This document shows positions 35,317 to 62,483 of a stretch of DNA of 64,000 nt, one piece after another (position 1 is the first letter of the stretch; each line of letters begins with the position of its first letter). The DNA comes from Isoetes taiwanensis. Taxonomy: Eukaryota > Streptophyta > Lycopodiopsida > Isoetales > Isoetaceae. The DNA lies in assembly GCA_021234155.1 (NCBI GenBank), contig JAJEKV010000054.1:4199962-4263961 (forward strand), read 5' to 3'. The notes under the pieces were generated by a model. The model searched no databases. It was not told the origin of the DNA and saw only the letters and a program-made list of their open reading frames with translations. Made by a program: the position numbers and the translations under genes.

Positions 35317-35340
35317 TTTGGGCCCACTCACGTGCCATAT

Positions 35341-36285: not shown

Positions 36286-36289
36286 CAAA

Positions 36290-37385: not shown

Positions 37386-37665
37386 AGCTTCATTCTAGAA
37401 CATTCTAGAAGGTTCTAGGATCATTAAGGTTTTTAATTAACCAAAGGAATTTCCATTGCCCCAGCCTTAACTAAGCATGGACTTCCTATTTTGTTGAAGA
37501 AGAAATGCTTGGCTTAGTGGCTAGGATTGGGGGGTATGGGGGGCTAGACTTGGGTTCGAATCCACCATGCAACATAAAATTTTAGATAGTGGTTAGAAAA
37601 AGGGGGAGGGCCTGGGATCGCGCCACGTGGCGCGTGAGGCAACGCGTTAGGACCGTCCGGATCGC
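37386..37665 (+). repeat. tRNA-headed SINE-like repeat, copy 2
   Basis: Nearly identical to 34997-35265 at an offset of 2,389 bp. A box 37509-37520, B box 37553-37563, heat-shock motif 37392-37416. Homology is lost around GCGTTAGGAC, and the GC palindrome of copy 1 is absent here. Confidence 0.65.
37392..37416. promoter_or_regulatory. Heat-shock-element-like motif, second copy
   Basis: Same five nTTCn/nGAAn pentamers as at 35003-35027, conserved exactly between the two repeat copies. Confidence 0.5.
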
Positions 37666-38320
37666 GCCAAGTGGCGCCACGCAGGCCGTCGATGGGGGTG
37701 GAGTTACATTCGTTACAACGCGGTATTTTTTTATTATATTAGAGTAGATATAACATACATCTAAATGTCACAGTCGACATCCTCACCAATGTAGTATTTG
37801 ATACTACTAAATTCTTCCAACATCCATGACCACCACCTTGTTATTATATGATATAGTAACATGTGTTATAATCCACTCCTGTATAACAATATAGTAAATG
37901 ATGATATTATCCACCAAAAATTTGACTTCTTGTTGCCGCAAACATATTTTCTCAACTCGTTTATCTTGTACCATATACATGTGGTTTTGATACCACACTT
38001 TTTAGACTCTATAACCGTAGTTCGACTTGATCCTCAAGCTCTAGTCACAAATTCCACAGTGAGAGAGGCCACCCTAAGTTCCTAGTGGACATGTTTAAAG
38101 TCTAATATAGGAACTCTTATCTTTATTATTTCCGTATTCATACGGACTGTCAACTAAAAGTTCTCTTACACACCTTTTCTTTTTGTTGTTATGCCATTAA
38201 GTGGTCCTAGTACGCATAGTAGATGTTAAGCTAAATGACATCTCTGTTCTGGTGATAGATATTCTTGAACCATAACCCCTAAAATGGGGCTGACTAAGGA
38301 TCATAAACTCTTGTATTCCT
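37666..38320. other. Spacer, nothing recognised
   Basis: AT-rich, no gene or repeat boundary seen. Confidence 0.5.
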
Positions 38321-39639: not shown

Positions 39640-41353
39640 ATGATAGGGCAGAGTCGACATTTGTTCTTTTCCAGTCGAAATGGCCGATGCTCTCATCAAG
39701 TAACAATCCTCATGTCCTCCTGGATCTTGTGACTGGCCCATACGGATTTGGAGTATAGACCTTCCTCTGCCTTGTCTTTTTGGTTGTCTGAGGAGTGAAG
39801 AATGTCTCCTCCTCACAATTCTTTACATTTTCCTCATCAGTGCTGTCCCCATCGTCCCAAAATTTTCCTTGAGGAGTGTCCCCAATTTCAATTTCAGGGC
39901 CCAAGGAAGATAGGACCCTTTGGTTATCATCCAATAGGGGAGCCCCCTGTGCCTGTTGTCCAAAGGCAGGGGAGTTCTCTACCATTAGATTTGTGGGCTC
40001 TGATTCTAATTGAGATTCCTCTTCATCAATAGGAGAATCCAATTGATTTCCTGCTAGGTCCACTATCCTATTTGCATTATGGGCATCTGAGAGGTCTAAT
40101 CGAGCTTCTTGAGCTTGATGTTCAGCAATTGGTGAAGCCAGATGATCCTCTATTGAGTCGGCTACCTGGGTACAGCTCAGAACGTTCTGTCTCTGTTTTA
40201 TCATTTTTCTGCTTATTGCTCAAGCCCTCCCCAGCACCTCCCTGCTGTTCATCACCAGGGTTCATATCACTGGCATCCTTGAATAGTTGAAGGATAGGGG
40301 GAGAAGAGATTAACCTTGATGGTTCTCCCTGCTCCAACAGTTTCCCAGGAGTCATCGAGTCCAGAAGTATTCATTTTCTTTGGAGGACCATTGGGTTCTT
40401 CAATGGTTAGAACCTTAGCTCTAACCTCATGGCGAGGGGGTGATCACAAGAGCATTAGGGTCCACAATTTCTTTCCCTTTGACTCTGTTTAGAATCTTAA
40501 CACTCAAGTCCTCTGTTTGGAACCTGACCTTCTTTTTCCACTGTTTCTTTTGTTCCTTTTGCCTTTGGTTCTCCAATTTCTGTTGCTCCATTAGATCTCT
40601 TTCCTTTTGTTTCTTTGCCTTTCTTTTAGCACTCCCATTAATGTTTTTCTTCTGCCTCTGAGTCGGTGTAACCAGATTTCTCTGGGATTTCCCTTTATTG
40701 GGAGTTATCCATTCTGGTTCCTTATCTTGCTCCACTATGCATCTGGGTTTTCCTGCTGTCACCCCCTTGCAGATCCCTCCTCCATGTAGTCAAATTCCAC
40801 AGATTCCACAGGGCTCCGGTAACCCATTCCAAGCCAGCTTCAAAGTTTTGGGGTTCCCAAAATAATCTATGTAGTGGATATTACTAGGCACAGGCTTCAA
40901 GAGATCGATCTGTGCCCATACTCTAGGGGCTCGGTCGGGCGAGATTTCAAGGTCAATATAGTTCCCAGTGTTTTTGAATAGTGAGAACAGGGACTGCTCA
41001 TTCCAATACATGGGGTTCAAGCCTTGTAGAGATGACCAGGCTGGGTGGAAAAGCTCAGTTAGGTTTTGAGGGTCAAAACCTGGGTACCATTTTTGGAAGA
41101 AAATCTGAGTGTTGGCCCTATTGATGGTCCCCTTTTTTAGGAGCAAGGTAGCTGATCGAGTGTTTTCACACTCCACTATGAAGAAGGGGAACTCAGTCCA
41201 ATATAGATTTTTTATTAGAATATCCTTTTCCTTCTCTAGTTCAGCTTTCAAATATTGCAGTCTAACCCCTTCATGTCGGACACAGCCAATGAGACCCAGA
41301 CTAGATAAATATTTTAATTTACTTTCTACAGCTGGGTTCTTGAGCTTACCCAC
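39640..41353 (-). pseudogene. LINE ORF1-like protein (DUF4283 plus zinc knuckle)
   Basis: From ATG 41353: a DUF4283-type domain with FFQKWYPGFDPQNL, NPMYWNEQSLFSLFKNTG and APRVWAQIDLLKPVP, typical of plant L1-like ORF1 and retro-derived proteins. A zinc knuckle CGICGI-stop-LHGGGIC keeps C-x2-C-x4-H-x4-C spacing but has a stop at 40790. The same frame continues with a Lys/Gln/Glu-rich segment (QRQKEQKKQWKKKVRF) and an acidic C-terminal part to about 39710. Another stop lies at 40427. ORF2 is not present downstream. Confidence 0.65.
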
Positions 41354-42905
41354 ACATGCCGGGATTGGTTGATCTTTTAGTTCACGTAAGTCTTAACTAG
41401 CATTAATTCCTTAAGAGTTAAAAGGGAAGCTAATTAAAGGCAATGCATTTTTATCTAATATAAGGTCTTAACCTTTAGAAAAAGGGAGGGAATCTTTCTA
41501 ATAAAACAATGGACCTTTTTAAAAGGGTCTCGACCACTATAAAGGGGGCACTGCGAATAGATGGATAGGCAATGGAGTCTTCAAGCGGACAACTCGGCGA
41601 CAAGGTTGGAATCTTCAACGGACAGTTTGGCAACAAAGTGGGAGGCGCTATATTAGCATTGCGACATGCTAGTGATTCTGGAACCAACATCTGCGAATTT
41701 GACATCAACATGGTCTTAACGGCTTGGCTTGGATCCATCGATTCAACCAATGTCCAGCCTAATCTAATTCCTGTTTTGCAAATGACACAATCCATTGTAT
41801 TGCAGGTTATCCCAAAGCTTCTAAGCCATTGCAAGTTCTTGAGAAAAAACTCTTGGATCATCTTTGAGCTGAATTCTTCACTGAGAAATTGGATAGGGAT
41901 TCTATTAATTCATCTGGTGAATAGTTCAAATCCAGTTCAAGCCCTTTTTAACAATACCCTTCTCCTCAAATTTGAGATTTAATTAGAGTGAATGTTCTAA
42001 TGTTAAAATTGAATTTATCCTAAGCCAATCCTTTCCAAAAATTTAGTCTTTCTTTGGAATTCTCTAGCTCAGGACAACCCGGTTGAGTGGTGAGCTTAGC
42101 ATTGGATGCTGGACTTTGTTCTTTGATTTATCTTTTGCTTGCTTGGCCTTACTCAAAGATTATTGTTTTGCCGCAATATTTTGTATTCGTATCAGGACTA
42201 TGGGCTAGCTCACAAGGATCGCAGTTGTGGTCCTTTTGAGCTAGCTGATGGACCAAGTACGGCACGAACCGCAAGCACAGGCCATTTAAAAGTATGATGC
42301 AGAACAATAGAATCAAAGGAACTCTTGTGACCTCGAATTAGAAAGATCATAAATTCCTAATCTTATTTTTGCACCTCATTGGATAATGGGGCTTAGGAAG
42401 TATCTAGGCCACATATAACTAGGGAGGGGGAGAAAGAAAGATTAGAAATCCCTGAAGCTTTCAAATGAGGTATAAAAATTCGGACGATTAAACTCACGCA
42501 AGTTTGTGACTGGACTATGACTCAAGATAATGAAGCAAGGCACGCATGCGTGACTAGACACCCAAGGATAATGATTTCTTCTACATTTGTGAAGTCATAG
42601 AGATGCTGAAACTTCGGCCATCTATTGCAGATACATTACACTGCAACACATGGACGAAGATTAAGCATCACTATGGGCTTCAATAACTATAGAAGAATTC
42701 ACTGGCCTGACTCAGAAGGATTGCGACCACGATCATTTTAAGGTTAATGGACTATGTTTTGATCAAGGGCTAATATCGCTCTTAGGATTCAGCATGGTAA
42801 ACCCACCTAGCAATGTCAGAGCTTGAGTAGTTTCACATGCTCGGAAGGGGCGCAAAAGAGATCCTTTCGAATTGGTGAAAATGCTAAAGAACGCTGATAT
42901 TGCTC

Positions 42906-45313: not shown

Positions 45314-45805
45314 TGAAGAATTCAAACAACACTCAACAAGTTAAATTAATAAACTTGTTAGTATATTCAAGCAAGCAATAGACAAGATAAATTACAAGTT
45401 ATCTTCGAACTATTGCATTTGCATCCACATCATACAAATAAGATATGAAATTGATTTATAACACTTCGACAGCCCAAGCCCGGATCATATCATGTCTTCC
45501 GGCTACTGCTGTATTCTCCCTTCACAATGATAATAACAATGCAATTCTTCTTTTTTCTTTATAACCTTCAGTCCGGCCGCTATGCCGGACCGAACGAGCT
45601 GCTTGCTATCAGATTTCTTAATTGGGAACTTTGAATCATATTTCCCCCTTTAGGATATGCAAGGTGTCGTTCTTATAATGACCTGCTATGTATATTCAAT
45701 GGTTTATTAACCATTGCCTTATTTCCAAATCCCAATCGTGCTTCAAGTGCTTCAAGTGCTTCAAGCACTACCTAAGTGCAATTACTACATGACATATATT
45801 CAACA
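45314..45805 (-). repeat. Copia 2 3' LTR (492 bp)
   Basis: Plus-strand ends TGAAGAATTC and ATATTCAACA; three CTTCAAGTG-type units near 45740-45765. Adjacent polypurine tract at 45806-45816. Confidence 0.93.
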
Positions 45806-45816
45806 TTCCCCCTTCA
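45806..45816 (-). other. Copia 2 polypurine tract
   Basis: The minus strand reads GAAGGGGGAA immediately before the 3' LTR. Confidence 0.75.
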
Positions 45817-45869
45817 TGTTGTAATCCACACATTTAATCATGCACTTCAACTCGTAAATTTTTGTCCTT

Positions 45870-48800
45870 TGCCGGGGTTTTGTGAGCAGTCGGCTAATTT
45901 GCTTGGTGTGTGTTAACATATACTAACTTGACTATATCCCTTTGCGATTTCCACGATAAAATGAAGTTCAAGTTCTATGTGTTTAGATCTTTCATGAAAG
46001 AGCGGGATCTTTTCGTCATTGCAATGCGACTTGTCTTGTCCACATTTACAATTAAAGGGCCTTGTTTTGATTGAAACCAAGTTCTATTAGCAGCCTTCTT
46101 TCCCATATTACTTCTTTGGTAGCTAATACAGCTGAGGCATATTCAGCCTCAGCACTTGACATGGCTGTAGCATTTTGCTTTTTACATTTCCAACTAACAG
46201 GAGCTCCCCCTAAGAATGTTAAATATCTTGAAGTGGATTTCCTTGTATCTAGATCTCCTCCCCAATCAGCGTCACAATAAGCATGCAATTGTAAATTTTC
46301 TGTATCATAGCTAACTCCATGATTCATTGTACCTTTTAAGTATCTAAGCACACGCGTTTAGTTTGCCATCCAATGCTCCTTTCCTGGGTCATTGTTGTAT
46401 CTGCTCAGCATATTCACCACATAAGCAATGTCTGGCCTAGTACAGTTGGCAACATAGGACAAACAACCAATCAATGACATATAGGGTACATTACTCATTT
46501 CCTCTCGTTCTGTATCTGTCTTTGGACACATTTTTGCTGAGAGTTTGCAGCCTGGAACTATTGGAGTATTGCTGATATTACATTCAGTCATTTTGAACTT
46601 TTTGAGCATTCCCTCAATCTGTCCTCTTTGAGTCAATGTCAGAGTTTTGTTCTCCCTATTTCTATGAACTTCTATGCCCAGAAATTTCTTCAACTCACCT
46701 AGATCTGACATTTTAAATTTGCTTTTCAGAATGTTCTTGCAATGTTCCAAAATATCAATGCCATTAGCTACCATTATATTGTCATCTACATAGAGAGCTA
46801 TTATGCACCACTCAACTCCTCTATGAAATTTGTAAATATTGCCATCATTTTGCAATTTTCCAAAGCCCTGCTCTCTAAGAAAGGAATCTATACACCTGTA
46901 CCATTCCCTTGGGGATTGTTTAAGGCCATAAGCTGCCTTTTTTAATTTCCATACTTTTCCATTTCCTTTTTCAAAACCTGGAGGTATTTTCATATAGATT
47001 TCTTCTTCTAAGTCTGCATTCAAGAAAGCAGTAGTTACATCCATATGATGTACTTCCAAGTCTGCAGCATTTGCAATTGACAGTAGCATCCTTATGCTAT
47101 TCATTTTTACCAGAGGAGAAAAGTTTTCTTCATAATCTTGTCCATACCTCTGGGTAAATCCCTGAGCAACCAGCCTTGCTTTGAATTTTGGTGTCACTCC
47201 ATCTGCTTGAGTTTTTATCTTGTACAACCACTTGTTACCAACAATATTCTTGTCACTAGGAGTATCTACAACCTCATAAGTGTTTGTTCTCTCAAATGAT
47301 TGTATTTCTTCTTTCATAGCCTTCAGCCAGTTTTTGCAATCATGTGAGGTTACGGCTTCATCATATGTTTTAGGTACAACTACATCCAAATGCATTAGAA
47401 TTTCAAAGAGTCCAAGAATCTCACCTTCTTTTTCTTTCAATCTTCTGCTCCTACCTGAGGCATCACGTCCAAGTAGATCATGTTGTGTAGCAGCTTCCCC
47501 CTTAAGCATTTCTGCTTCCGTCCTCCTTTTCTTTTTAACAACATTATTTTGTACCTCATCTTGTTGATCTTCTGAACCTGCTGCCTGCACATTGTCATCA
47601 GCAATAACATTATGGTCAGTTGGCAATTGTTCATCTTCCTCATCCCAGTCAACTGTGATTGTTGGCTCAGCCTTTTCTTCTGGAATATTTGGTACTTCCT
47701 CAATCCTGTGGTTATCTGTTTGACCCTGATTGTTGATCCCTGGTAATACCTTGTAGTATTGTTCTTCATCAAATACAACATCCCTGCTAATTAGAATTTT
47801 CCTTTTGCTTGGATCATAAACCCTGTATGCCTTTGATTCTTGGTCATACCCAACCAGGTATGTAATATAAGCTTTGTCATCAAGCTTCTTCCTCAACTCA
47901 TCTGGCACATGAACAAATGCCAGACATCCATAGGCCTTAAGCCTTTCATAGTCTGGTGTTTTGTTAGCCCATAATATAACTGGAATTTCTCCTTTGATGC
48001 TTAAGGATGGTAACTGGTTTTGCACATGCACTGCTGCCTTAACAGCTTCTTCCCAAAGGAAATTTGGTAAACCAGAGTATTTTAGCATACTCCTTACGGC
48101 GATTGAGAATGGTTCTATTCTTCCTTTTCAGCAATCCCATTTTCTTTGGCGAGAACCCTGCATGTCGGGTTGCCTCTTAATGCCATGTATATTGCAATAT
48201 TGCTTGAATTCATTAGACATGAACTCTCCTCCCCTATCTGACCTTAAGCATTTGATTTTCCTCCCTGTTTCAACTTGCACCTCATTTGCAAATTTTTTAA
48301 ATGCTTCCAATGCTAGGTCTTTTGTGCTCAAGCAGTAGACTCTGGTCATTCTACTATAGTCATCAATAAAGGTCATAAAATACCTTTTTCCAGAAATGCT
48401 AGTAACATTTAAAGGCCCACACAAATCTGTGTGTATCAAGTCCAGCTTATTCTTTGCCCTTTTTTCTGATTTCTTAAAAGGAAGTCTACTATGCTTGCCT
48501 AAAATGCAGCCAACACATTTAAGCTTCTCATTATCATCAGTTGTGCCCTTGATCAGCCCCTTCTTGATCATAAGTTTGACAATTTTAGAGTTTACATGGC
48601 ACATTCTCTCATGCCATGTTTTTGTACTTGCACATGTTACAAGGTTAACACTTGGAACATAATGATTCAAGTTTAAGCCAAATAAATTGCCAATTCTTTT
48701 ACCAAGAAACTTGAGTTTATTATTGAGAAACACTTTACATTCCAATCTCTCAAAGAGAACTTTATACCCAAGATCAACTAACTGGCAAACTGAAATCAGG

Positions 48801-49033
48801 TTTCTAACTAAACCTGGAACACAAAGCACATTTTCTAACTTGACAGCCTTCCCTTCAAGATCATACAGTTCAAGCATTCCTGTATCTTTGATTTCTTGCA
48901 AATCACCATTTCCTAGTTGCACATGTCCACTTTTTACTTTCTTGCAATCTTTAAGCAACTTTGCGGATGATGTTACTGTCCTCTCAGCTCCTGAATCTAT
49001 AATTATCATATTGTGATCATTATCATGCATCAA
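45870..49033 (-). pseudogene. Copia 2 protease, integrase, RT and RNase H
   Basis: From 49033: IIDSGAERTVTSSA (protease), WHERMCHVNSK and CVGCILGKHSRLPF (GAG-pre-integrase), IHTDLCGPL and LRSDRGGEF (integrase Asp residues). A frameshift near 48100 hits the region of the catalytic Glu. From 48088 a 576-codon frame holds the integrase C-terminus, then a complete RT: KWLYKIKTQADG, MDVTTAFLNADLEEEI, LKKAAYGLKQSPREW and LYVDDNIMVA. A stop or shift near 46355 separates RNase H (YCDADWGGDLDTRKSTSRY, SSAEAEYASA), which decays after 46052. Confidence 0.88.
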
Positions 49034-49039
49034 ATGACA

Positions 49040-50116
49040 TAATTTAGCATAACTAACCTCATCATCTTCATTTTGCTCGTCCTCCTCACTTCGAGCCTCC
49101 TATGTTAAATTTAATGCTGGATTATCTTTAGAACCTCCCTTTCCTTTTTGTATGAATGTCCTGCTGCCTCTACCTCTGGTTTTGCCTTTAGCATTCGCCC
49201 CTTTGAATTTGGGGACGGTTTGGAAGCAAAGTGGCCTTTACCATCACAATTGTAACATATAACCCTTCCCTGTTTTTGGACAATCAGCCCTTAAATGACC
49301 ATATGCATTGCAATTATAACAAGGTCCAACTTTGTCCCTGCCAGCCTTTCCAAATCCTCTTTTTTCCTTATGTTTACCTGCATAAAGTACTTCGGTAGCT
49401 TGTTCGTCTTCATCTTGGCCAAAGCGCCTCTGATTTCAAATTAGGCCATTATCATTTTGTATTGCATGATCTTTGGTTCTTGCAATATTCCTTAAAAAAG
49501 TAGCCAAGTAAGCATTGTGAGAAGCTTGACCACGGAAATAGCCCGACAATTGATATTGCTCATTTAATATTACACTGCTCCTTCTAGATGCTGCTACAAT
49601 GGAATCAATTTTTTCACAAAATTCAGTTATATTATCTTTCTCATGTAGCTTTAGTTTTCTCAACTGCTTCTCCAAAACATCAATCTGGGATGATGTTTTA
49701 ACTTCATAATTTGTGACCATGTAGGTCCACATTTCACTAGGGCTTAGCCCTCTAAGCTTGAGCTTAATAGTTGTTCCAACCTTGACAAATGATAGCTTGA
49801 GCCTTTTTAATCTTAATTACCTCATCGGTTGACACACTTGAGGTATTTGTTGGACCTGCACTTTGCGGCAGACTATACTAGCTTCACCACTTCCACCAGG
49901 TGTGGAATCCCACGTGCTTGAGCTTGAGGCGGCTCTCTGGTTGACCCCTGCACTAGCATTAGCACTAGATCTCCTGCTTGCTTTAGGATCAACTAAATAC
50001 CACAGGTTTTCAAACTCCAGGACTTCCTGGATACTTTGTTTCCAGACTTGGAAACCACTTTCCCCTTTGAACACCTCAATGGCGTTAAGCAGATTTGCTC
50101 CAAATCTGCTAGACAT
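49040..50116 (-). pseudogene. Copia 2 Gag
   Basis: It begins MSSRFGANLLNAIEVFKG at 50116, homologous to copia 1 Gag. Frame breaks lie near 49820 and 49435. The capsid part SQIDVLEKQLRKLKLHEKD is intact at 49732-49600, and zinc-knuckle remains appear in mixed frames at 49200-49330. Confidence 0.8.
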
Positions 50117-50140
50117 GATGAATTTTTTTATAGGATCTGT

Positions 50141-50153
50141 AGCTCTGATACCA
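50141..50153 (-). other. Copia 2 primer binding site, tRNA-iMet type
   Basis: The minus strand reads TGGTATCAGAGCT one base from the LTR end. Confidence 0.9.
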
Positions 50154-50154
50154 A

Positions 50155-50637
50155 TGAAGAATTCAAACAACACTCAACAAGTTAAATTAATAAACTTGTT
50201 AGTATATTCAAGCAAGCAATAGACAAGATAAATTACAAGTTATCTTCGAACTATTGCATTTGCATCCACATCATACAAATAAGATATGAAATTGATTTAT
50301 AACACTTCGACAGCCCAAGCCCGGATCATATCATGTCTTCCGGCTACTGCTGTATTCTCCCTTCACAATGATAATAACAATGCAATTCTTCTTTTTTCTT
50401 TATAACCTTCAGTCCGGCCGCTATGCCGGACCGAACGAGCTGCTTGCTATCAGATTTCTTAATTGGGAACTTTGAATCATATTTCCCCCTTTAGGATATG
50501 CAAGGTGTCGTTCTTATAATGACCTGCTATGTATATTCAATGGTTTATTAACCATTGCCTTATTTCCAAATCCCAATCGTGCTTCAAGTGCTTCAAGCAC
50601 TACCTAAGTGCAATTACTACATGACATATATTCAACA
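50155..50637 (-). repeat. Copia 2 5' LTR (483 bp)
   Basis: Identical in my reading to 45314-45805 apart from one missing 9-bp unit. Confidence 0.93.
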
Positions 50638-50902: not shown

Positions 50903-50932
50903 AACAAGGTTTAAAATGAAACGCACTTATTT
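50903..50932 (+). repeat. Left TIR (30 bp)
   Basis: Matches the complement of 59827-59856 at 29 of 30 positions; preceded by GTCT. Confidence 0.85.
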
Positions 50933-50939
50933 AAGAAGT

Positions 50940-51367
50940 GCGTTTGAAAGATTCCTTTATAAAAATTGGAAACTTGAAAAAAACAGACAAAATAGGGAGC
51001 AAAATAGATTGTTAAGCAATTAGCATTCGAAATACCCCCAAAAAAACAACATTTTTGAAGCCTTTTCATTTTTTAAAGAGGGCAAAAAAAAAAAAAGCTT
51101 GTTTTGAGGAGGGTGACATTAAATTTAAAAGCTGAATAAGTATTTATTGCTGAAAATAGAAGGAAATACAGTTTGTCTTTTTGCAAGCTTAATATAAGTA
51201 CTAAGAAAATTAAACATAGGGAAGACAAAGAGTGTGAAATCATGGAGCAAGAAAGAGTTGCTCTAATTAAGCACTGTTGAAGAGACAAAGCTTTCAGATT
51301 AAAAATCATCATCAAAATATGTTATATTTCTTAGCACATAGTTTACAATAAAAGTTAGTTTGTAATC
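50940..51367. other. Left subterminal region of the TIR transposon
   Basis: AT-rich, non-coding, with an A12 run near 51086. Confidence 0.5.
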
Positions 51368-52152
51368 TTATTTGTATAAATTTATACAAGCCCGGTGGAG
51401 GAGGTGGTTCTTCCGGTCCACGGGACTCTCGTTACCCTTAGGATCGACTCTTGTGAGGGTATGATAGCGAGGCTTTGCCGATTCCAATGGCGCAGTGCAG
51501 TTTTGTTTCTCTAGCTTTCGGGCACCACCGGGCTCTAAGTCGACAAACTCCACCTCCTCATCTCTTCTTCACGTAAGTGGAGGTTTGGATTTACGTGTAA
51601 GTGCCCTTAGCATCGCTAGCACCGTTCTTTGCTCCAGTTCCTCATTTTCATCGGGAAAGGATTCACAAGAGCTTATCGGTCTGATGAAACTTACTATCAC
51701 GGGTCTATGTCATTTGAGGCGACATTGCGGCTGCTTTTTAAATGGCTGGCGTGGTGCCCGATCCGGAAAAGGCATCTAAGATCCGATCTCGGCGAGAAAA
51801 CCAGCGTACCAAATTATTAATAAGCGTGGCTTACGATAATGGGACACCCGGCCTTTGTCATTTGTGGGTCTCTTAATTTCTGCCGAAACGGTTGGGAGGC
51901 CGAAATGCATTGCGGGGAGGAGTCTTCTCATCGTGCGTGTTAAAATGAATCATGGTTTTTGGTGTCCGCCAAAAAAACCTATATGAAAAATGCCGAAAGC
52001 TTGACTCACTAAGCGGACCACCACCATGACCCTTGGCGTTTGTTTTAAGCACGCCAAGCAAAGCGGCAATTAGAAATTAGTAAAAAGAAAACAAGGAAAA
52101 TAAGTTAGCGGTAGTGTGGCGGTATAAACTTATCACGACGGTTGCCTTCTTT

Positions 52153-52286
52153 GTATAAATTTATACCACCGGCGGCAAAGCCGTATAAATTTGAACAGAC
52201 ATTGCCTTCTTTGTATAAATTTATACCGCGGTTGTTCCGACCTTTAAAATTTAAACCTTAAGGCGGATGTGGTATAAATTTATACG
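52153..52286. repeat. Palindrome cluster 1 (intron of the methyltransferase gene)
   Basis: GTATAAATTTATAC at 52153, 52213 and 52272 plus a partial copy at 52182; a single copy lies at 51374-51387. Confidence 0.8.
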
Positions 52287-53338
52287 ATTGGAGTTAAAGT
52301 AAAACAAAAGCGTTAATTGTGAAGCTTACCAAAGCGCGTTTTGAAGCGGCCCGGCGTTCTGAGACCGCTCCCATAGGTTTAAGCACCGACATCGTCGAAG
52401 GTCGGAATGAAAAATGATGACCCTCCGGTTTTCGGATGTCGTGACTTCTTTTAGGCCATCGGGAAAGGCCCGGACTTGCGTGGTGAAAGCCTCCTCATCA
52501 AAAGCGCTATCCTTTATTTTAAATCCATAAGGAATATCGCAATGCATAATGTAAAATTTTTTCTTGTCTAAAAGAGTCCCCGACCTTGTACAATCACCCT
52601 CAACAACCTGTCTTGGGCGTCGACCAAATGTGGTAAATCTCTCATATACGAGTCAAAGCTGGAAGTGGCGACCTCTCTACCTGTTCAATTGCCTTAAGCC
52701 TTTGCCTCTCTTCTTTGGCCCTCTGAACCGGGTTTAAAAATCGGTTGGTAGCCCCTTTTTTCTTGTTACGTAAGAGTAATGTAAGACAAAGGCACAAACA
52801 CATAACATATTGTTTGCAAAACTTACCCGACCTTTGGAGTTAAGCTGCGTGCTCTCTCGATAATCTTTATGCGTGGTGCAACTTGGGTACAAAAGTTTGC
52901 ACTCCTCCCAATCTTCTAGGTTGAGCTGCTTCATTAACTCGGCACGGCAAGTGACAATGTCTTTCTGACTGCAGAGGGAAAAGTATTGTAAGACAAAAAA
53001 AGGTAGAAAAAAACTTGGCATAGCAAGTGAGGCTTACGTTTTAGCTTCCTTGGCCATCTCGTCTAATGTGAATTCTTTGGCAACTACTTTTTCCAACAGG
53101 CGAACAAATATTTCTTTGCTTTTAAGACCCTGTAACTGCGTCCAGGGTACAATGCTCATATTTTTTTGTTTTGATTCACCACCTTTCTTTGGTTTCTTTC
53201 CTGCGTCCCTAGCTTGTTCTTTGAGCTCCCCATCTTCGAACATACAAAAAATTCTCTCTTGAAGATCCCACACCTGTAAATGTTCAAACGAAGTTTAGTG
53301 TTGAATGGCGTAAGAGGATGGGCACGGCGACTCAACAC

Positions 53339-53545
53339 GGTATAAATTTATACCGTGCCTGGCCGCGGTATAAATTTATACCGTGCACGGCGTGATATAA
53401 ATTCATCCGGGTGCTGTATAAACATGCGTGATATAAATTTATCAGATGCACGGCGACGTGATATAAATTTATTGGGTATAAATTTATACGCGGCGGCCGC
53501 GGTATAAATTTATACAAAGGTGACGGTTAAACCGTATAATTTATC
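53339..53545. repeat. Palindrome cluster 2 (intron between ParB-like and methyltransferase exons)
   Basis: Perfect GGTATAAATTTATACC at 53339-53354 and 53367-53382, then six or more variants such as GATATAAATTTATC. The cluster lies inside the predicted intron 53613 to 53274. Confidence 0.8.
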
Positions 53546-54439
53546 ACGAATCACTAAGGCTATTACAAGCTTCTAACTTCGCTAAACATACTACAAAGAT
53601 TGAATTGAAGCTTTTACTTACTTGACCATCTCACGAAAGCTAGCTGAAAGTAGTTATCGTATTGTTTTGACCGACCATAATGGGTTTCTTATCCGAATCA
53701 TAAGCGGTGACACTTTCTGTCACCACGGGCTTCTCGAAGCTCTTGAAGCTTGTTCTTTTGTTTTTGAAGTCGTCTCCATGCACTTGTTTGAAATCCCGTA
53801 CTCTCGGTGCATGGCGAATCTTGTCTATTAGGCTCATCTTTAGTCACGAAGTCATTGTCGAGATTGTGACTCACGGCAATGACTTTTGCCTCTTCGTCTG
53901 TCACCCCCACATAGATATATGCTTCTTCCGCTCTTCAGGACTTCATTCGACTTTCTTCTTTTGAAAGTTCTTTTCTTGCTTTATAGCTATGTGTGCCTCC
54001 AAGAACATAATAGGTGTAATCTTCAAAATCTGCCTTTTGTAGTCTTTTAATTGGTTGCCTTGACTTACGTCCCACCATCACAACTAGTGGCGACACATGG
54101 GCATGAGGATTCCTTCTCATTCTTTGCTTAAGGATAGCCACATGTGCGATACAACTTTCGGACCTGAAGCACTCGACCCCATCTTCATTTTTGGTGGCCT
54201 CTTAATAGTGCTTAGTGTCAAAGAAATGAATGCTTGAGCGGTTTGGTTTCATTAACACAGCTTGAGAATAGCACTTTCGACTTATCTGCGGGCTTCTAGC
54301 GATATCGCTCCACGGAGCCTTCGAAGAGCCTGGCGACTCCTCTATAGTCAAGGACTTTGTGATTCTAGACTTTTTCTTGGTAGGAGGCATGTGTATCTTC
54401 TACCGGGGAATACTTCCTACCCTTTCCCTTTTTCGACGG

Positions 54440-54495
54440 CCTCTTGGTTCCTCCTCTTCCTCTTCCTCTTCCTCTTCCTCTTCCTCTACTACTTC
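54440..54495. repeat. (CTTCCT)n microsatellite
   Basis: Seven or so hexamer units. On the minus strand they encode Arg-Gly repeats at the N-terminus of the ParB-methyltransferase frame. Confidence 0.8.
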
Positions 54496-55247
54496 CTCTT
54501 GATAATGCGGGGGGTACCATAGACCCTTGACCAACACTTTTCGTCGCTTACGGCCTCACGACATCAAAATTTCTACTCGTCTGTAATGCGGGGTTAAGTT
54601 AAGAAGAATAGCCGGTATAAATTTATCACGGAAAGCATGTAAGAATAACTTACGAAGCCGCTCTTGTAATTGTCCGCAATGTAATCGTTAATGCGTCTTT
54701 AGGCTTGCACATGCTAATTCTAAGCATTCTAGTATTGAGAACATAGTGGGCCGGGACCCTTGTCATGGTTACCTTTGCATTAGAACTTCATCATCGTTCT
54801 CTGTAGCAACAAGGCTTATAATTTCGCCCGGCGGGGTAATAATCATCGGACTTGAACTTGCCCTTCCGATTGTTTGCACAAGTAAAGTGCGCCTCGGTGG
54901 GTTTGCTCTCTCTTGCGCCCCTGTGGGCGTACCAAGTCGATCCTTTAGTTCATAAGTCTGTGGCTCGGTGGTGCACCCTTTGATGATGACCCTCAAAGTA
55001 CAAACTTGATCTTAGGGACACTTTGTAATGCATAAAAACAACCATTTTTACAAAAAAAGCGTACCTTTTGAATTTTTGAAACACAAAAGCGGTAGAAAAA
55101 GAGGATGAAAGGGCATAAAATCCACACTAAATTAACACTTCATTTGTGTCATTTAAGCTGAAAACACACAACAATATTACCAAAATATTAAGGTTCGGGA
55201 CCATTCGTTTGAGCACTAGGCGTCAAAATTTAAAATGGTTCTCGAGC

Positions 55248-55600
55248 GGTATAAATTTATCTGACTCGAGCACTTGCGGTATAAATTTATACGCTAGTGC
55301 TTCTGGGCGGTATAAATTTATACCGCTTTCGAGCGCAGGCGATATAAATTTGGCTTTCGAACGCGGCGGTATAAATTTATCACCGCTTCGGGCTGCCGAA
55401 TGTGTTGCGGGCGGTATAAATTATACCGCTTCGTGCTCGAAAGATAATATAATTATCGCCCGTCTTTCAGCGGTATAAATTATACCGCTCGAAACCAATA
55501 TACGCCAAGTGCTACGGCGGTATAAATTTATCCGCTTCGAGCACGGGCGTATAAATTTATCCGAATCGAGCCATCTCGGTATAAATTTTTATACCGTGGG
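55248..55600. repeat. Palindrome cluster 3, densest
   Basis: About eleven copies in 350 bp, including a perfect one at 55309-55324, often set in GAGC/CTCGAG-rich spacers. Variants such as GGTATAAATTATACC and GATAATATAATTATC stay roughly palindromic. Confidence 0.85.
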
Positions 55601-56060
55601 GCTTACACTCTAACAGATTAAAACCAAAGAGAAACTAAGATTAAAACCAAAGAGAAACTAAAACAGTACGGAAAGTAGACTTACGTGGCCATGACCGTAT
55701 GGACTAGAGTATAGAGGTTGGGAGAGCAAATAAGAGGGGTATATAAAGCGGACCATGGCCGACTTTTCTCGGCATATATCGCCAAGTGCTACGGGCGGTA
55801 TAAATTTATACCGCTTTCGAGCGCGAGGCGTATAAATTTATACCGATCGAGCCATCTCGGTATAAATTTATACTGGGGGCTTACACTCTAATGATTAAAA
55901 CCAAAGAGAAACTAAGATTAAAACCAAAGAGAAACTAAAAGCAGCGACGGAAAAGTAGACTTACGTGGCCATGGCCGTATGGACTAGAGTATAGAGGTTC
56001 GGGAGAGCAAATAAGAGGGGGTATATAAAGGCGGACCATGGCGCCGACTCGAGCTGCGTA
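55504..56060. repeat. ~280-bp tandem duplication with TATA-like boxes
   Basis: Units beginning GCCAAGTGCTACGG at 55504 and 55781 both include palindromes, the doubled text GATTAAAACCAAAGAGAAAC, CTTACGTGGCCATG and a TATATAAAG box (55740 and 56022) followed by CGGACCATGG. Confidence 0.85.
55797..55875. repeat. Palindrome cluster 4
   Basis: Perfect copy at 55797-55812 and near-perfect copies near 55829 and 55858, within the second duplicated unit. Confidence 0.8.
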
Positions 56061-56165
56061 TATGAAAAAAGGGTGGCCGGCGCCCGGGCTTAAGTACCCT
56101 GCTAAGTGCCGTTTCAGTATAAGCGTTTCTCCATAAAGATTCCAATACAAAGTAATGTGAGTTTT

Positions 56166-56325
56166 AGGTATAAATTTGTGCGTGTCTTCCTCCTCAGGTA
56201 TAAATTTATACCATCTCGTATAAATTTATCTGGTCTGCGACTCTAAGTTTGCCTTCTACAGTATAAATTTATACCATCCCTGTGTAAACTTTTACCATGC
56301 TCTTACGTAGGTATAAATTTATACG
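56166..56325. repeat. Palindrome cluster 5
   Basis: Perfect copy at 56197-56212; variants near 56166, 56217, 56262 and 56309, ending where the transposase region starts. Confidence 0.8.
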
Positions 56326-56639
56326 GTGTGGCCGCTACCTTTTTAAGTATGGCTCGAGAAAAAAAGCTGCCGAGCCTCAAGTCTGTTCGCGGGCTTCCTC
56401 TGCAATGACATTCACACCTCCTCAGCTGACTTTGAAAGTAGCCTCGGAAATTGCGCCTTTGATATTCAAACCCCTAGCTCTGTTGAGTTTACTCGGCCAC
56501 GACCACCTTAGCTTCCACCACCGGTTCAACTTACTCCACCACACCCACGCTCTGAGCGTCGTGCGCCCCACCAATCGTTTTACCCCACCTCGGGCTAGAG
56601 AGGTCGGACTACCTCCTCCACTTCAGTTTAGTACATAGC

Positions 56640-59383
56640 GCCCTTAGTCCGCAGTAGGCTAAATCCCCGGGAGGCAAATCACGCCAACTCCATCAATTTA
56701 AGCTAAATGATACTACAACAAGTGGAAGTCGTCGACACGCAACTCCTGTGTTCTCACGACACCGGGGCTGGTCAACCTCGTCACCAACCTCGATTACTTT
56801 TTCCCCGGAGAGAGGGAAAGCACCTCCCCCGGGACTTGCACACACCAAACCTATCGGCATCTACAAGTACACCTCAAGTTGATCTCTCGGGCGAAGAAAC
56901 ACCTCATGTTGATCTCTCGGGCGAGGACCTACCAAAGCCACAAGACTCCTTGTTGAATTCAAAGCCCCTGCAAGTAAGAATCTTAAAGCGTAACTTACAC
57001 AAGAAAGCATGTACAAGCTGTTAGAAGAAAGAAACTCATGAGCGAGGCTCACTTGCGGGCAACACATACAAAGCACTTGTTGTTCTCAAGCGTTGTTTGC
57101 TTAAGATTGGACTAAAGGAATTGAGGTTGATTCGTGATAGTTACAGTTCAATGACTCTGCTAGACCAAAGGGGCTACTTAGCCTTCAATATTAGGCGGAT
57201 GATGGTGAGAAGTTTACTTACACGCTGGTGGCCACACCGTCATGTCAAAGCGGCCTTCAAATTGATTCATGCTTTAGGCGTGAGACGACTTGACCGCTGA
57301 AGAAAAGGCTTGACAAGAATCCGGGCATCAATGACTCGCCATTCGGGAGGCATAACCAGAATTCATGCCCTTCAATGTGTTTCTGGATGGAAGGTTTCTT
57401 TAAGGAGTCTTGTGAGAAACTCCCTAATAGCCCTATGTACCACTTGGTGACAATTTCACGAAACAAGAAGTCTACGATAATTATAAGGAGATGTGTGTTG
57501 AGGTGGAGAAGCGCTTTGCGCTACTCTTACTTTTTGTGCTCTGGAAAAAAGAGTTTTCTCGGCGTGTCCATTCCTAGAAAGCATAGGATGTCTGTTTGTG
57601 CTACATGCTCGAATTAAAAGCTCGGAGACAAAATGCAAGGACACTTCACACTAAAAGTAAGCTTCGGGGCGTGTTCTTGCCTAGTTCTACTTAAAAGTAG
57701 GTTCTTTCCTAAACATATTTTCCTTTCGGATGCATTGAAGGAGGGCCCGAACAAGCACAGAGAACAACAATCTTTGGAAAGGAGAAAATTGACAAAACAT
57801 AGGAAGAAAGCCTTTGGAACAACCACTCAACTACATATCGGTTGTTATTGATGGAATGGACGAGAAGAAGACCACCCTACCACATTTTGTCAATGTGCCT
57901 AAGGATCTTTCTTGAAGAAGATTTCATACATACGCATGTTGTTGGTGCTATGGTATTTAATGGAAAACTATCTTGCAAGGCATTTTTGAATTATCCAAAC
58001 ATTCATGCTGATCCAAATCTCACTATCACAATATTGAATAAGCTTCTTTCCAATCTAGAACATATACCGCCAGGTTACGTATCTTGACTAGATAACACGA
58101 CAAGGGAAAATAAGAATCAAAAGGCGTTGTTTGCTTCTTGTGCTATGCTAGTAGAGAAACAAATCTTCAAGAAGGTGAAGATTGGTTTCTGCTTGTTGGT
58201 CATACACACGACCAAATTGATCGGATGTTGATAGGTTCTCTAAGCGTCTTGCTCGAAAAAAAGCTCTAAGCACGCCAGACCATGATTGAGGTCATCCAAG
58301 ATTCCTACAATCCTCGTCGGACATCGAGTTATTGGAAGAAACTTATGATTTCAAGGAATGGATTTTTAGGAGAGATCAACTAGGTCTTTGTGCTATTGAG
58401 CCCTTGAGAAACATTACATTTCAGCATCGGATCAAAATTTCACTTGTAGATGGCAAGGCCATCTTACAAGGAAAGAAATATGCCACATCCTTGCGGTGGC
58501 GGCCCGGTAAGCCAGTATTCAATTCATTCGCAACATCCCCAATACTAGTTCCATGCTCTCTGCAGATCAAATGCCTCTAAAAAAGCTTGAAAGAAATCAC
58601 AAAGAGTAAAAAAGGAGGGAAGAGCATTTGACTCAAATAAATCATTGGATTGTATTGAGACAAGTATTGATCTGCTCTAACCACTTTGGGGAGGCGGATG
58701 CTTTATGGTGGCCTCAATTTTTTTTTCGACAGCGTGACATGTTGCAAGCTTCATTACAAGGTCGAAGACCGGTTACATTCAAGCTGGCCATCTAGGCAAA
58801 CCCTCCTGTGCAAGTTGAGATATTGGCTAGCTCGGATGAAGATGACAGAGTCATGTGTACGGCCCTAGGCATACAAAGCACAACAAGTTGCTTTCAGTAT
58901 ACAGTTCGGTCTCGAGAGATTGAGAAAGGAATGCTCATAGCTGTCCCGGTGATAATGATGAATCTGGGGAGGCCATTCGGCTAGCTAAAATCTTGGAGGT
59001 AACAAGAGGATGGAATTCCCACTCAATTAAAAGTGCTTTGGATGAGAACATTGCGCCAATGCTTTCGATTGGGAGTTATACTTTGGAGATGGTAAAAGCA
59101 GGAGTGGGAAAAGAGCTAAGTCCAAAGCAAGCACCGCTTTGTCATAGATCTAAGCGAAGTAAAGGTTCTTGCATATGACTTTGTTACATTGGCGCTAATA
59201 AGTTACGTATGGTCCTCAAACTTTAATAAGGTCGGCATGTGGATTAGACAAACAAGCCAAAAAGGTGGCCAAAAAGATGATGATGAAGACTCACTTGTAG
59301 GCGGTGAGGAAGAAGATCGTTCGAGTACATCGATCTTTGAGAGTGAAGGCGAGGATGAAGGCTCGAGTGATCGAGGGGAATAA
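56640..59383 (+). pseudogene. DUF7869-type transposase of the TIR transposon
   Basis: Plus-strand blocks appear in the order of this family: FKLIHALGVRRLDR (57255), FWMEGFFKESCEKLPNSPMY (57380), KHRMSVCATCSN (57580, Cys pair), VVIDGMDEKKTTLPHFVNVP (57841), LSCKAFLNYPNIHADPNLTI (57970), LDNTTRENKNQKALFASCAM (58088), and LVGHTHDQIDRM (58192). The Asp residues in IDGMDE, LDNTTRENKN and GHTHDQID suggest an RNase H-fold D-D-D/E site. The C-terminus is acidic (DDDEDSLVGGEEED), ending TAA at 59383. Frameshifts between nearly every block, including one just before GHTH, show it is dead. The 5' end is uncertain. Confidence 0.65.
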
Positions 59384-59826
59384 ATGAGTCGAGGATGAGA
59401 TGCATCGATCTTCTTTGCAAAATGTAAGTTTTGTCAGATGATTTCGAACATGTAAAAAAACGAGAAAGTCGCGGTGATGATTGTGCGTCAAAATATCCTA
59501 TATTTTTGACAATTTTGTTCATAATTTTGTACAATTTTCACAACCTTGAATATATCACTTCTTTGTCACTCTACTACCCTTGCTATTTTTTTTATTGCCC
59601 CTTTTTTGCTACACTTTATAAAAGTAACTATTTTTTGTTCTAGTTTAGGAGGATGAAAATTGCTATTTAAAATTTTTGCACGAAAGTTATGTTCAATCAA
59701 CCCCTCAAAAATGGTACCTAAATTACTTAAATTGTCACACCTGTCACAAAAAAATCTTAAAAATGGACTTTTTAAAGGGAATTTTAGGGAATCTTTCAAA
59801 GATTCCTTTTGAAGTGCGTTTCCAGC
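59384..59826. other. Right subterminal region of the TIR transposon
   Basis: AT-rich, non-coding. GGAATCTTTCAAAGATTCC near 59789 is a near-perfect palindrome; its half GAAAGATTCC also occurs inside the left end (50946). Confidence 0.5.
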
Positions 59827-59856
59827 AAATAAGTGCGTTTCATTTTAAACTTTGTT
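59827..59856 (-). repeat. Right TIR (30 bp)
   Basis: Complement of the left TIR with one mismatch; followed by GTCT. Confidence 0.85.
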
Positions 59857-62483
59857 GTCTGCGAAGGGCTGTTGATGAGGCTTCTGAGGCAAGGAAGAAG
59901 CATGAAGAACTAGAATATGCTAATTCGAAGAGAAAATATAATTTAGATAAAAGACACGCAAGGCAAGCAAAAAGGCCTCCAAATGTGCTAGGAAGACAAC
60001 CGACCAAGCAATTACGGAATTCATCAAATCTTCATGTTGTGCAAAGCTTTGTTGTTCCATGTTTTCGGTTAAGGAGATTGCTAGCCTTAGAACTTTCTAC
60101 TGGAATATGGATTGTTGGATCGGATCACCTTGTTCTATAACATGTTTGACCTATGTGTTGTTGATGGTCAGGAAGGCACAGTGATGCTCAATAATAAACA
60201 GGTCTGCCAGCAAGCATGACAGATGGTGTATGACATAGCTTCGTCGATTTTTTACAGATGGAAGAAGAATTTCATGGAAGGCCACAGTGTAGTTGAGCAT
60301 GGAAATTCAGATTCGATGAAGCCGAGGTTCCAAACTCCGACAGCAGATAGCATATTCACACTATACGTCAATGAGAATGCTGAGACTATGCCATATAGGT
60401 CAAAGAAGACCACACATGGGACAAGAGAGAATATATTGAAGTTGTCCTCCATTTCGACCAAAAAGGATATACATCAAGAAGTTGATATTGCTATGGAAGA
60501 GCTGACTGGTAAGCATATGTCATGCTCTTATTTCTTGCATATTTGGAAAGATAATCATTCGGAGGTTGCCATAGCCAAGTGCATAGCTTTCTTCAAATGT
60601 AACACATGTATAGTCATTAAAGAAAAGCTAGCTAAAACACATGATCCATTGGAAAAAAGAGAGTTAGCATGGGAAAGAAAGGTTCGTATATTTGCATAGC
60701 TGTCTTGCAGAAGCTTTTATCGATCCTGACGAGCATTGTCGCATTGTGCACCGGACCAAGCTCCTACGATCATTCATGATAAAATGGACCAGAATAACAA
60801 TATGTAGCAAAATAACCGGGGGTTCCAGGGGGATTTGATGTGGATGTAAAAAATAACAATTCTTGAAACCATAGATCATATATCCCTAAAACAATTGAAT
60901 GGGTTGTTATAAAAAAAAAAACCATAGATTCAAGATAAGAATTAATCACATTAGCTCACTGGGTATATTGGTTAAAGTAGTTTTATTGGGACATTGAGTT
61001 ATTTTGGTAGAGGTTCGAGCCCCTGTATTTTATATTCTATAATCTTAGGCAAAGCCGTATAGAGGTTCGATATTCCCTCAAAACCTTAGGCGAAAGCGTA
61101 TTTCATATTTCAAAATCATAGGCGCCTCCAATCATAAATGATTATACGCGAAAAAAGAGAGGTGCTCACAGGCCCCAACATACGATCTGGGTCGTACGAT
61201 CGACGAATCCGACTACTATGGTAGTACAGGGTGCCCTCGTTTAGACTATGGTGCCTAGACTTGAGAAGTTGGCCAAGTCGATGTGGAGAGGGGAGCGTCT
61301 AAAGGTTAGCATCACTGGAGCTCTGATACATGATCATGGTACAAGCGCACTAGGTCATTTTTCGGTTGAGCTTTGGCAAGATGACTCTAACTTTCACATT
61401 AGATCTCTCAATGATGTATTGAAGACACTGGAAGATTCAACTGAAGATAACTGGGGTCACCTACGTGATATAGCTAAACCCACATGTGCATGGGCTTCTT
61501 CAATTCTAGAGTCTGAGGCTTTGAGGACCAAGGTGATCAATAAATCAAAAAAAACTATATGATGTGCCTCCAAGGGAAATCTCAAAACTGAAAAAGCTAC
61601 CGACGAGTATCTTCATCTTGACGACTGCCCTGGCCAGAACAAGAATAGATATGTGTTTTCATACTTTTATTACCTTGTATGGCAAGGTGTGTTTGATGAG
61701 ATGAAATTGGGTTTCATGATGGTTGGGCATACACGTGATGATATAGATGCTTTGTTTGACAACTACTCTATTGTTTTGAGAAAGTCAGATGCACTAGCCA
61801 TTCCAGAGTTAATGCAAATGTTTTGGGAATGTAGCTGGAAAGCTCTAACGCCTTACCTTGTGCACGAGGTGATTCACGAAAGGCTACATTCTTGCTCAGA
61901 AGGAATGTCTGATGGGCCATCTAGAGCCACTTCTGTCCAAATTCTGCAACAAAGACGAATGGCCTCTAATATTTTATAAGATAAAACCTGTGAGTGGCGG
62001 AGAAGGAAATTAAAATATGTAGATGATGCACCCATGATTCCTCAAGGAGTGCCAAAGACTGTACCTCCAGTGAAAGCTCTCAAGGACATTAGTGCTTTGA
62101 GAAGCTTCATAACAAAATACATCATCCAGTTCAAATCCTTAATCCATATCAAGATATCAGGAAGGGTATGTTCTTGCTTGTGAGGCCAACTGATAGTTGC
62201 CTTACTTGGTTAGCTAAAGACCCAAACGAGCCTCACTACGAAGAAGTGTATGTCTCATGGTGGGAGCCTGTCAATAGGAAGGTTATCCCAATAACTATGT
62301 TGATTGTTGGGAGAAGAGGTGGAGGCTAATGATCCGTCTCGATACCAACTGATAAAAACCATTGACTATGCATGGACAATTGAAGGGGTGCCTTCAACCA
62401 TGTTGATCCCAAGCGACGTAGCCTCTCAATTAAGAGACCTGGTTGCTAATGAGGATAAGGATGATGATAAGGATGAAGAATAA
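59857..62483 (+). pseudogene. Host gene of the TIR insertion: second DUF7869-type transposase
   Basis: It starts with a basic region (EARKKHEELEYANSKRKYN). 60223-60699 is open: SIFYRWKKNFMEG, CSYFLHIWKDNHSEVAIAKC and CNTCIVIKEKLAKTHDPLEK (the Cys-pair block). The putative triad is in HDKMDQ (60775-60792), LDDCPGQNKN (61612-61648) and VGHTRDDIDAL (61722-61751). PRLEKLAKSMWRGERLKVSI with ALIHDHG follows the first motif after a 450-bp interruption holding a SINE. It ends with acidic NEDKDDDKDEE at 62483. Several frameshifts. With the DUF8039 parts upstream it likely formed one older transposon, distinct from the element that split it. Confidence 0.65.
60951..61130 (+). repeat. tRNA-headed SINE-like insertion
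   Basis: A-box-like TAGCTCACTGGG (60952-60963) and B box GGTTCGAGCCC (61012-61022). The following text repeats AGGCAAAGCCGTAT or AGGCGAAAGCGTAT and GAGGTTCGA. A 12-base A run precedes it at 60911. It lies inside the transposase gene between its first acidic motif and the next conserved block. Confidence 0.5.

Follow-up and report, generated by a model that had tools for sequence, protein, structure and literature searches.

A frameshifted two-gene DNA transposon of Isoetes taiwanensis with a probable N4/N6 DNA methyltransferase gene and clustered palindromes

A DNA transposon of 8,954 bp was found at positions 50903-59856 of a 64,000-nucleotide stretch of the Isoetes taiwanensis genome (the window). 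The element has 30-nt inverted repeats at both ends, a pair also recovered by blastn (1.8e-6), and GTCT lies flush at both flanks, a putative 4-bp target-site duplication seen in one insertion only. A sequence-only reading of this DNA had described terminal inverted repeats around a methyltransferase gene; these repeats are present and lie outside the interval given for that gene. The layout is of two divergent genes, a methyltransferase gene on the minus strand and a presumed transposase gene on the plus strand, both of which are frameshifted in this copy (Table 1). A copia-type reverse transcriptase and DUF4283, which we take to be a plant family, occur near the transposon, indicating a plant setting for the window.

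The plus-strand gene matched Pfam DUF7869 with an E value of 3.4e-32 on joined frames, and an unjoined fragment (57803-58084) matched at 1.2e-5. We infer that this gene encodes the transposase of the element, which would be a DDD/E enzyme of the DUF7869 type acting on the terminal inverted repeats. Elements of the Sola superfamily have 4-bp target-site duplications, terminal inverted repeats of 11 to 1124 bp and sizes of mostly 2 to 9 kb (PMC10741241); the GTCT on both sides (one insertion only), the repeat length and the size observed here agree with this description. Zisupton duplications measure 8 bp in the accessible part of PMC12730594, as against 4 bp in this element, and a KDZ identity was rejected on account of the 4-bp flanks and DUF7869.

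Table 1. Features of the transposon and their positions in the window
Feature	Position	Strand	Details
Left terminal inverted repeat	50903..50932	+	30 nt; GTCT directly before
C-terminal tail of methyltransferase gene	51368..51658	-	Frameshifted; end overlaps exact palindrome at 51374
Methyltransferase C-terminal part	51666..52075	-	HYRKP (motif X-like), LDAFSGSGTT (motif I), NDIDP; frames differ
Array 1	52123..52285		Six palindromes (3 intact, 3 with 2 edits); spacings 31, 30, 30, 31, 28 nt
Intron D (putative)	donor 52329	-	Array 1 downstream of donor
Methyltransferase motif IV exon	52330..52652	-	LLDKKKFYIMHCDIPYGF ... RRVIIFHS
Intron C	52762..52826	-	65 nt; GT-AG; open frame maintained across
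Intron B	52969..53037	-	69 nt; GT-AG; open frame maintained across
Intron A	53274..53621	-	348 nt; GTAAGT ... TTTACAG; 4 exact palindrome cores inside; frame across ambiguous
Array 2	53340..53545		Eight palindromes, intact or with up to 2 edits; within intron A
Exon 1 region	53622..54520	-	Simple-repeat start and ParB-like core (YVLGGTHSYKARKEL ... TDEEAKVIAVSHNLDND); broken by frameshifts and stops
Intergenic arrays	55249..56324 (55249-55592, 55798-55873, 56168-56324)		Between the divergent genes
Tandem duplication, ~270 bp	55501..56045		Intergenic region
Presumed transposase gene	56340..59400 (approximate limits)	+	Frameshifted; DUF7869 core within about 57800-58330
Right terminal inverted repeat	59827..59856	-	97% complementary to left; GTCT directly after

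All of the motif strings quoted in the sequence-only reading were located on the minus strand in the claimed order. The RG-rich start is at about 54520, YYVLGGTHSYKARKEL and VGVTDEEAKVIAVSHNLDND lie within 53698-54201 in two fragments separated by a stop, HCDIPYGF is at 52326-52652, and FSGSGTT, at 51741-51830, precedes NVASNDIDP in a different reading frame. Since the pieces of the gene occupy different frames, this copy of it carries frameshifts. A (GGAAGA)n simple repeat, translated as GRGR, EEEE or RKRK depending on the frame, makes up the RG-rich start, which was, hence, regarded as weak evidence and rejected as a real feature. The GT-AG joins of introns B and C link open frames on either side and look eukaryotic, in agreement with the introns proposed earlier. 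The putative product would contain both ParB-like and methyltransferase parts, encoded on the same strand and in the right order with introns between them, the frame being broken in this copy.

The N-terminal half of this gene may encode a ParB-like DNA-binding domain, as suggested by motif order and by algal precedent. The ParB-like core reads GGxHxYxAxKEL and then TDEEAKVIAxxHN, upstream of the methyltransferase. No ParB match was obtained for this half in Pfam (E values up to 10), PHROGs or NCBIfam or with a phage ParB profile, a match to the last being a mark of the phage ParB-methyltransferase family. A tblastn search of phages with a longer query from the gene gave no match, and two such searches of plasmids each returned a single match, one to an aminotransferase (E = 3) and the other, at the motif I end, to a site-specific DNA-methyltransferase (E = 6, chance level by this value). 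The top Pfam match, outscoring any ParB model, was IgA0_D2 (E = 3.1e-4; 21.4 bits; cutoff, 27) and was taken as chance; an AlphaFold model of the ParB frame made without an alignment had a mean pLDDT of 36.2. The absence of ParB matches in Pfam, with the phage profile and in the phage and plasmid tblastn searches is consistent with an N-terminal half that is not ParB-like, the transposon carrying a methyltransferase whose DNA-binding region is unrelated or lineage-specific. This alternative is somewhat unlikely, as the ParB-like motifs occur in the right order ahead of the methyltransferase and published algal transposon genes pair them likewise. The earlier proposal of a ParB-methyltransferase fusion on a plant transposon with terminal inverted repeats was upheld in part, for the transposon, the N4/N6 methyltransferase gene, the introns and the plant setting, while a ParB identity is suggested by motif order and the algal precedent.

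A new observation, absent from the sequence-only reading, was the presence of arrays of the palindrome GTATAAATTTATAC. There were 16 exact copies and 25 within 2 mismatches, all located within 51374-56324, as against 0.27 expected (0 of 100 shuffles). The copies sit in introns and in the intergenic region. Spacings between neighbors fell within 26 to 33 nt in 17 of 33 cases (0 of 5,000 random placements), a test for which the range and the stretches were chosen after the data had been seen. In the mismatch scan, the palindromes kept a distance of at least 471 bp from the left end of the transposon and of 3.5 kb from its right end; a laxer edit scan added one doubtful site at 51119 (TTAAATTTAAA). 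These arrays are the strongest sign of how the element might work. Repeated sites for the transposase are common in DNA transposons, and arrays lie both in the methyltransferase gene and ahead of the transposase gene start (56168-56324). The palindromes could be sites for the transposase or for host factors, as promoter or subterminal-type repeats, with the methyltransferase being uninvolved. We consider this rather improbable, since the distances from both ends seen in the mismatch scan are unlike those of subterminal transposase sites.

The minus-strand gene probably encodes a bacterial-type, beta-class N4/N6 DNA methyltransferase, judging from its motifs and profile matches. A motif order of IV, X, I and an N6_N4_Mtase match at the C-terminal half are typical of beta-class DNA methylases. 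When a phage methylase profile was compared with 1,971 six-frame stop-to-stop fragments of the window, the top two matches were the motif I piece (9.7 bits; i-E, 0.041) and the motif IV piece (7.0 bits; i-E, 0.26), in order, neither being significant alone. Among 60 shuffled windows, no single fragment scored as high as the top match, and the summed score was not reached by any ordered pair lying within 1,500 nt and drawn from the 30 best matches. The joined methylase region matched Pfam N6_N4_Mtase (E = 8.5e-5; 23.0 bits; cutoff, 26.7) and its motif IV half matched UPF0020 (E = 1.3e-3; 18.9 bits; cutoff, 22.3), both scores being obtained with chosen frame joins and still lying under the Pfam cutoffs. 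With hhalign, motif IV alone was aligned, with a probability of 90.5 over 23 columns, and motif I was not. Searches of PHROGs gave nothing better than an E value of 0.086, and those of NCBIfam and PDB sequences gave no useful match. Of the two domains proposed earlier, the profiles thus recovered the methyltransferase, though below the cutoff, and not ParB. The Pfam, profile, hhalign and shuffle results indicated that the gene has the N4/N6 catalytic motifs found in transposon-encoded ParB-methyltransferase genes of the algal kind. As the motif IV piece is also UPF0020/RMKL-like, UPF0020 being the Pfam match of that half, the enzyme could methylate RNA or protein and not DNA. This is very unlikely given the IV-X-I motif order, the N6_N4_Mtase match at the C-terminal half and the matching of both halves by the phage ParB-methylase profile.

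ParB-methylase fusions do occur in phages, a methylase name being present in 28 of 60 phage records with a ParB match among the matches listed (571 found), but contamination from a bacterium or phage was rejected and is, like a chance collection of motifs, scarcely credible, in view of the frame remaining open across two short GT-AG introns where a contaminant would be intronless, the inverted repeats, the neighboring copia elements, the DUF7869 gene and the shuffle tests.

A base-calling artefact of modified DNA was considered as a source of the frameshifts. The two copies of the internal duplication differed by 17 indels versus 5 substitutions, 20 of the 26 differing columns were within 2 columns of a CpG (compared to 103 of all 276 columns), and the CpG observed/expected ratio was 0.95, with no depletion. 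This excess of small indels close to CpG sites might be a base-calling trace of modified DNA, but many small indels were also seen in other repeats of the window, CT-rich ones with 55 and 93 events among them. A literature search on nanopore errors in plants found nothing on base-calling of modified DNA. Separately, CAG/CTG occurred in the element at 0.47 of expectation; the value for positions 1-6000 was 0.43, indicating that this shortage is not special to the element.

The combination of a methylase gene and palindrome arrays points to possible marking of the element's DNA by the element itself. The best explanation, whose chances as a whole we put at about even, is that this plant DNA transposon is of the cut-and-paste type, with two divergent genes that are frameshifted in this copy, and that its ParB-like/methyltransferase protein uses the palindromes to methylate its own element. 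The accessory protein made from the minus-strand gene would combine two halves, a probable ParB-like one that binds DNA and one that is a beta-class N4/N6 DNA methyltransferase. The DNA-binding half would load on the clustered palindromes, whose frequent separation by ~30 bp, or three helical turns, would allow several copies to be stacked on one face of the DNA, directing the methyltransferase to the introns and promoter region of the same element. The resulting 6mA or 4mC mark could keep the genes of the element expressible or tell its DNA apart for the transposase. A more specific version, which we hold to be distinctly doubtful, is a transposon with its own parS-like system, in which 14-bp palindromes set about three helical turns apart in introns and the promoter region load a ParB-methyltransferase, 6mA/4mC is placed only on the element, and host 5mC silencing may be countered. 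If the main explanation is true, ParB-methyltransferase transposons extend from algae into plants and could be one origin of DNA modification of the bacterial type there. The palindromes provide a concrete hypothesis for the target of the ParB half, and writing of 6mA or 4mC by the element on its own DNA would constitute a directly testable, transposon-made epigenetic mark.

Phage ParB-methyltransferase fusions (loci L002-L004 and L008-L011) have the same domain order, with motif IV (DPPY) before motif I (FxGSGTT/S), but are single open frames without introns, unlike the plant gene; the aligned fusions have a ParB core with GHxR, and their profile misses the plant sequence. IMG/VR scans with both proteins gave 3 and 2 stretches fitting the peptide pattern, none of which was confirmed, and a scan for the palindrome gave one contig (L001) with a single palindrome and no spaced pair. 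Fungal transposons carrying TET/JBP likewise combine a transposon with a DNA-modifying accessory enzyme, but, in the accessible part of PMC12730594, this enzyme is a dioxygenase whose target is the methyl group and not a 6mA/4mC methyltransferase, and the transposase families are others. Viral Mariner elements also carry methyltransferases, which the available portion of PMC3627910 describes as of the Methyltransf_26 or C5 type and in virus genomes, with ParB unmentioned there. The closest likeness is to Sola1-1_Ec32 of Ectocarpus, in which, according to the sections of PMC12477816 at hand, the gene opposite the transposase codes for a protein with ParB-like and N4/N6 methyltransferase parts, which has been put forward as binding and modifying the transposon that carries it. 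Palindromes are nowhere mentioned in the main text of that paper. Sola1-1_Ec32 is a 21.5-kb element of a brown alga, whereas the present one is 9.0 kb and from a plant; in both, the methyltransferase gene belongs to a DNA transposon and runs opposite to the transposase gene, here the presumed DUF7869 one within terminal inverted repeats. The ParB-methylases of green and red algal transposons, for which that paper refers to Iyer 2011 and Petroll 2025, are accessory proteins of the same kind by the wording of the citing sentence. These published algal precedents, as far as that source presents them, place the Isoetes element, as a plant variant, within a kind already known.

An 8,954-bp TIR element was found to carry two divergent genes, one presumed to encode its transposase and one for a methyltransferase, with phased palindromes in the introns and on the upstream side of the latter. 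The terminal repeats reported around the minus-strand gene in the sequence-only reading were located by blastn within the window (E = 1.8e-6). The tetranucleotide GTCT abuts both ends of the element, flush, as would a 4-bp target-site duplication; at the other offsets from −3 to +3, the flanks shared at most two bases at each placement. Taken alone, this is modest evidence, since the chance of a common 4-mer at one given place is 1/256. The left flank is occupied by a copia element whose two LTRs differ by 0 substitutions and one 9-base gap, indicating that it is probably young. On the right lies part of a second DUF7869 gene (61263-61980, plus strand) with longer open frames; two unjoined pieces matched with E values of 4.6e-5 and 3.9e-23. 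This gene contains DDCPGQNKN and VGHTRDDID, and the methylase element may have inserted in or beside it. Elsewhere in the window, several kilobases at 33200-37700 are CT-rich, with long open frames overlapping in all three plus frames, and a DUF4283 domain, which we take to be a plant family, was matched at 40790-41392 on the minus strand (E = 8.1e-10).

Features of the transposon and its left flank
Feature	Position	Strand	Remarks
Copia element	45314-50637	minus	right end 265 bases left of the transposon
Left TIR	50903-50932		30 nt, 97% complementary to right TIR
Candidate methyltransferase gene	51368-54520	minus
Putative intron D	donor 52329	minus
Putative intron C	52762-52826	minus	65 nt
Putative intron B	52969-53037	minus	69 nt
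Putative intron A	53274-53621	minus	348 nt
Internal duplication	55501-56045		copies differ by 17 small indels vs 5 substitutions
Presumed transposase gene	~56340-59400	plus	Pfam DUF7869
Right TIR	59827-59856		30 nt

The plus-strand gene matched DUF7869 with an E value of 3.4e-32 (112 bits) when frames were joined and of 1.2e-5 (25.4 bits, cutoff 26) for the unjoined fragment 57803-58084. We presume this to be a transposase domain because it lies within a TIR element and has acidic motifs (IDGMD, LDNTxxENKN and VGHTHDQID when the frames are joined). No mention of DUF7869 by name was found in the literature searched, and sequence search found no solved structure related to the protein.

The motifs quoted for the supposed ParB-DNA methyltransferase fusion were all recovered on the minus strand in the order described. 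They fall in different reading frames, and the gene is frameshifted in the present copy. With frames joined by eye, the methylase half (METHYLTRANSFERASE) matched Pfam N6_N4_Mtase (E = 8.5e-5, 23.0 bits, under the 26.7 cutoff) and UPF0020 (E = 1.3e-3, 18.9 bits, cutoff 22.3); earlier joins gave weaker values. As frame joins flatter such scores, a join-free test was made: seven phage ParB-methylase fusions, out of 10 loci fetched, supplied a methylase-part profile that was searched against every six-frame fragment between stops in the window with 20 residues or more (1,971 in all). The top match was motif I, the FSGSGTT piece (51741-51830, minus; 9.7 bits, i-E 0.041), and the second was motif IV, the HCDIPYGF piece (52329-52652, minus; 7.0 bits, i-E 0.26), with the third scoring only 3.3. 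The two stand in the order of beta-class enzymes. Among 60 shuffled windows, the top score was 8.3 and 7.0 was attained in four, while in no shuffle did two of the 30 best matches stand in order within 1,500 nt and reach the same sum; the pair is significant, and neither match is so by itself. Hhalign aligned LLDKKKFYIMHCDIPYGF with LMDGKKANLIVTDPPY of the phage proteins (probability, 90.5) in a local alignment of 23 columns that stops short of motif I. HYRKP, read in a different frame immediately upstream of motif I, occupies the place of HPTMKP in the phage enzymes. A methyltransferase is thus well supported, and its family makes DNA the likely target.

Putative introns B and C have GT...AG ends with open frames on either side, giving a reading from LKSKEIFVRLLEKVVAKEFTLDEMAKEAK through TQKDIVTCR...QLNSKGR to KKGATNRFLNPVQRAKEERQRLKAIEQ. 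Candidate intron A has good ends but leaves the reading frame ambiguous, and of candidate intron D the donor alone is clear.

The N-terminal half is probably ParB, as suggested by the likeness of GGTHSYKARKEL followed by TDEEAKVIAVSHN to the ParB core and by the order of ParB and methyltransferase, as seen in phage and algal proteins. This core was nevertheless unmatched by any profile: no ParB was detected with Pfam at E values up to 10, with PHROGs or NCBIfam, with the phage ParB profile or by tblastn against phages and plasmids. The RG-rich start is present but carries little weight, being a (GGAAGA)n repeat. The best Pfam match of the N-terminal half was IgA0_D2 (E = 3.1e-4, 21.4 bits against a cutoff of 27), taken to be a chance match. 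A single-sequence structure model (mean pLDDT, 36.2) was useless.

A scan of the whole window for the 14-bp palindrome GTATAAATTTATAC detected 16 exact copies and 25 sites with at most two mismatches, all within 51374-56324 (shuffle mean, 0.27; 25 attained in 0/100 shuffles). They are located in intron A, below the intron D donor and in the intergenic region, and the one at 51374 falls in the last open stretch of the methylase gene, at its 3′ end. Allowing up to two edits in a 12-base core gave 34 sites in the element, including a doubtful one at 51119, versus 12 in the remaining 55 kb, every one of these with two edits. Spacings in one array were 31, 30, 30, 31 and 28, and 30 bases is approximately three helical turns. 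Neighbour distances of 26 to 33 occurred in 17/33 pairs, a number that random placement over the occupied stretches failed to reach in 5,000 trials, both stretches and range having been chosen after the data were seen. Judged by sequence, these phased arrays are laid out like a multimeric loading site; the observation as a whole is real, with more regularity than had been seen originally. Within 52123-56324, ten of the 34 sites show TATC or CATC on the right, where intact sites have TATAC; none of the 34 had the corresponding change within the left arm, and two had an extra A just before that arm, which amounts to a bias between the sides.

Both genes are frameshifted throughout. Of the 26 differing columns in the internal duplication, 20 lie within two columns of a CpG, and CpG is undepleted in the element (observed/expected, 0.95) versus 0.30 in the copia element. 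Together with the indel excess, this does not resemble the usual decay of silenced plant transposons; the differences may instead stem from sequencing errors, perhaps where bases are modified. In the eleven repeat pairs compared outside the element, the indel/substitution ratio lay between 0 and 2, with the top value based on three differences; two CT-rich pairs, with 55 and 93 indel events, had ratios near 1. CAG/CTG was half as frequent as expected both in 51374-59400 (0.47) and in 1-6000 (0.43); CTA/TAG was raised in 1-6000 (1.25), as C-to-T decay would give, and not in the element (0.81).

In the mechanism we propose, the palindromes would be the loading sites of the ParB-like half, and the methyltransferase half would mark the DNA of the element itself. 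Such a mark might keep the element's genes active or allow the transposase to recognise its own DNA.

Among the best matches in the open literature, judged by title and start of abstract, no ParB-methylase transposon gene was found for a land plant, which does not imply absence from print. Excerpts of PMC12477816 describe the 21.5-kb Ectocarpus transposon Sola1-1_Ec32, in which a gene opposite the transposase encodes a protein of 1104 aa with both a ParB-like and an N4/N6 methyltransferase domain, and cite green and red algal cases to Iyer 2011 and Petroll 2025. The Isoetes element likewise has its methylase gene on the strand opposite the presumed transposase. Sola elements, according to excerpts of PMC10741241, make 4-bp duplications, are mostly 2 to 9 kb and are known from Physcomitrella; the Isoetes element agrees in its putative 4-bp duplication and its size. 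The kind is already known from algae, and what sets this variant apart as new is its occurrence in a plant and its arrays of palindromes.
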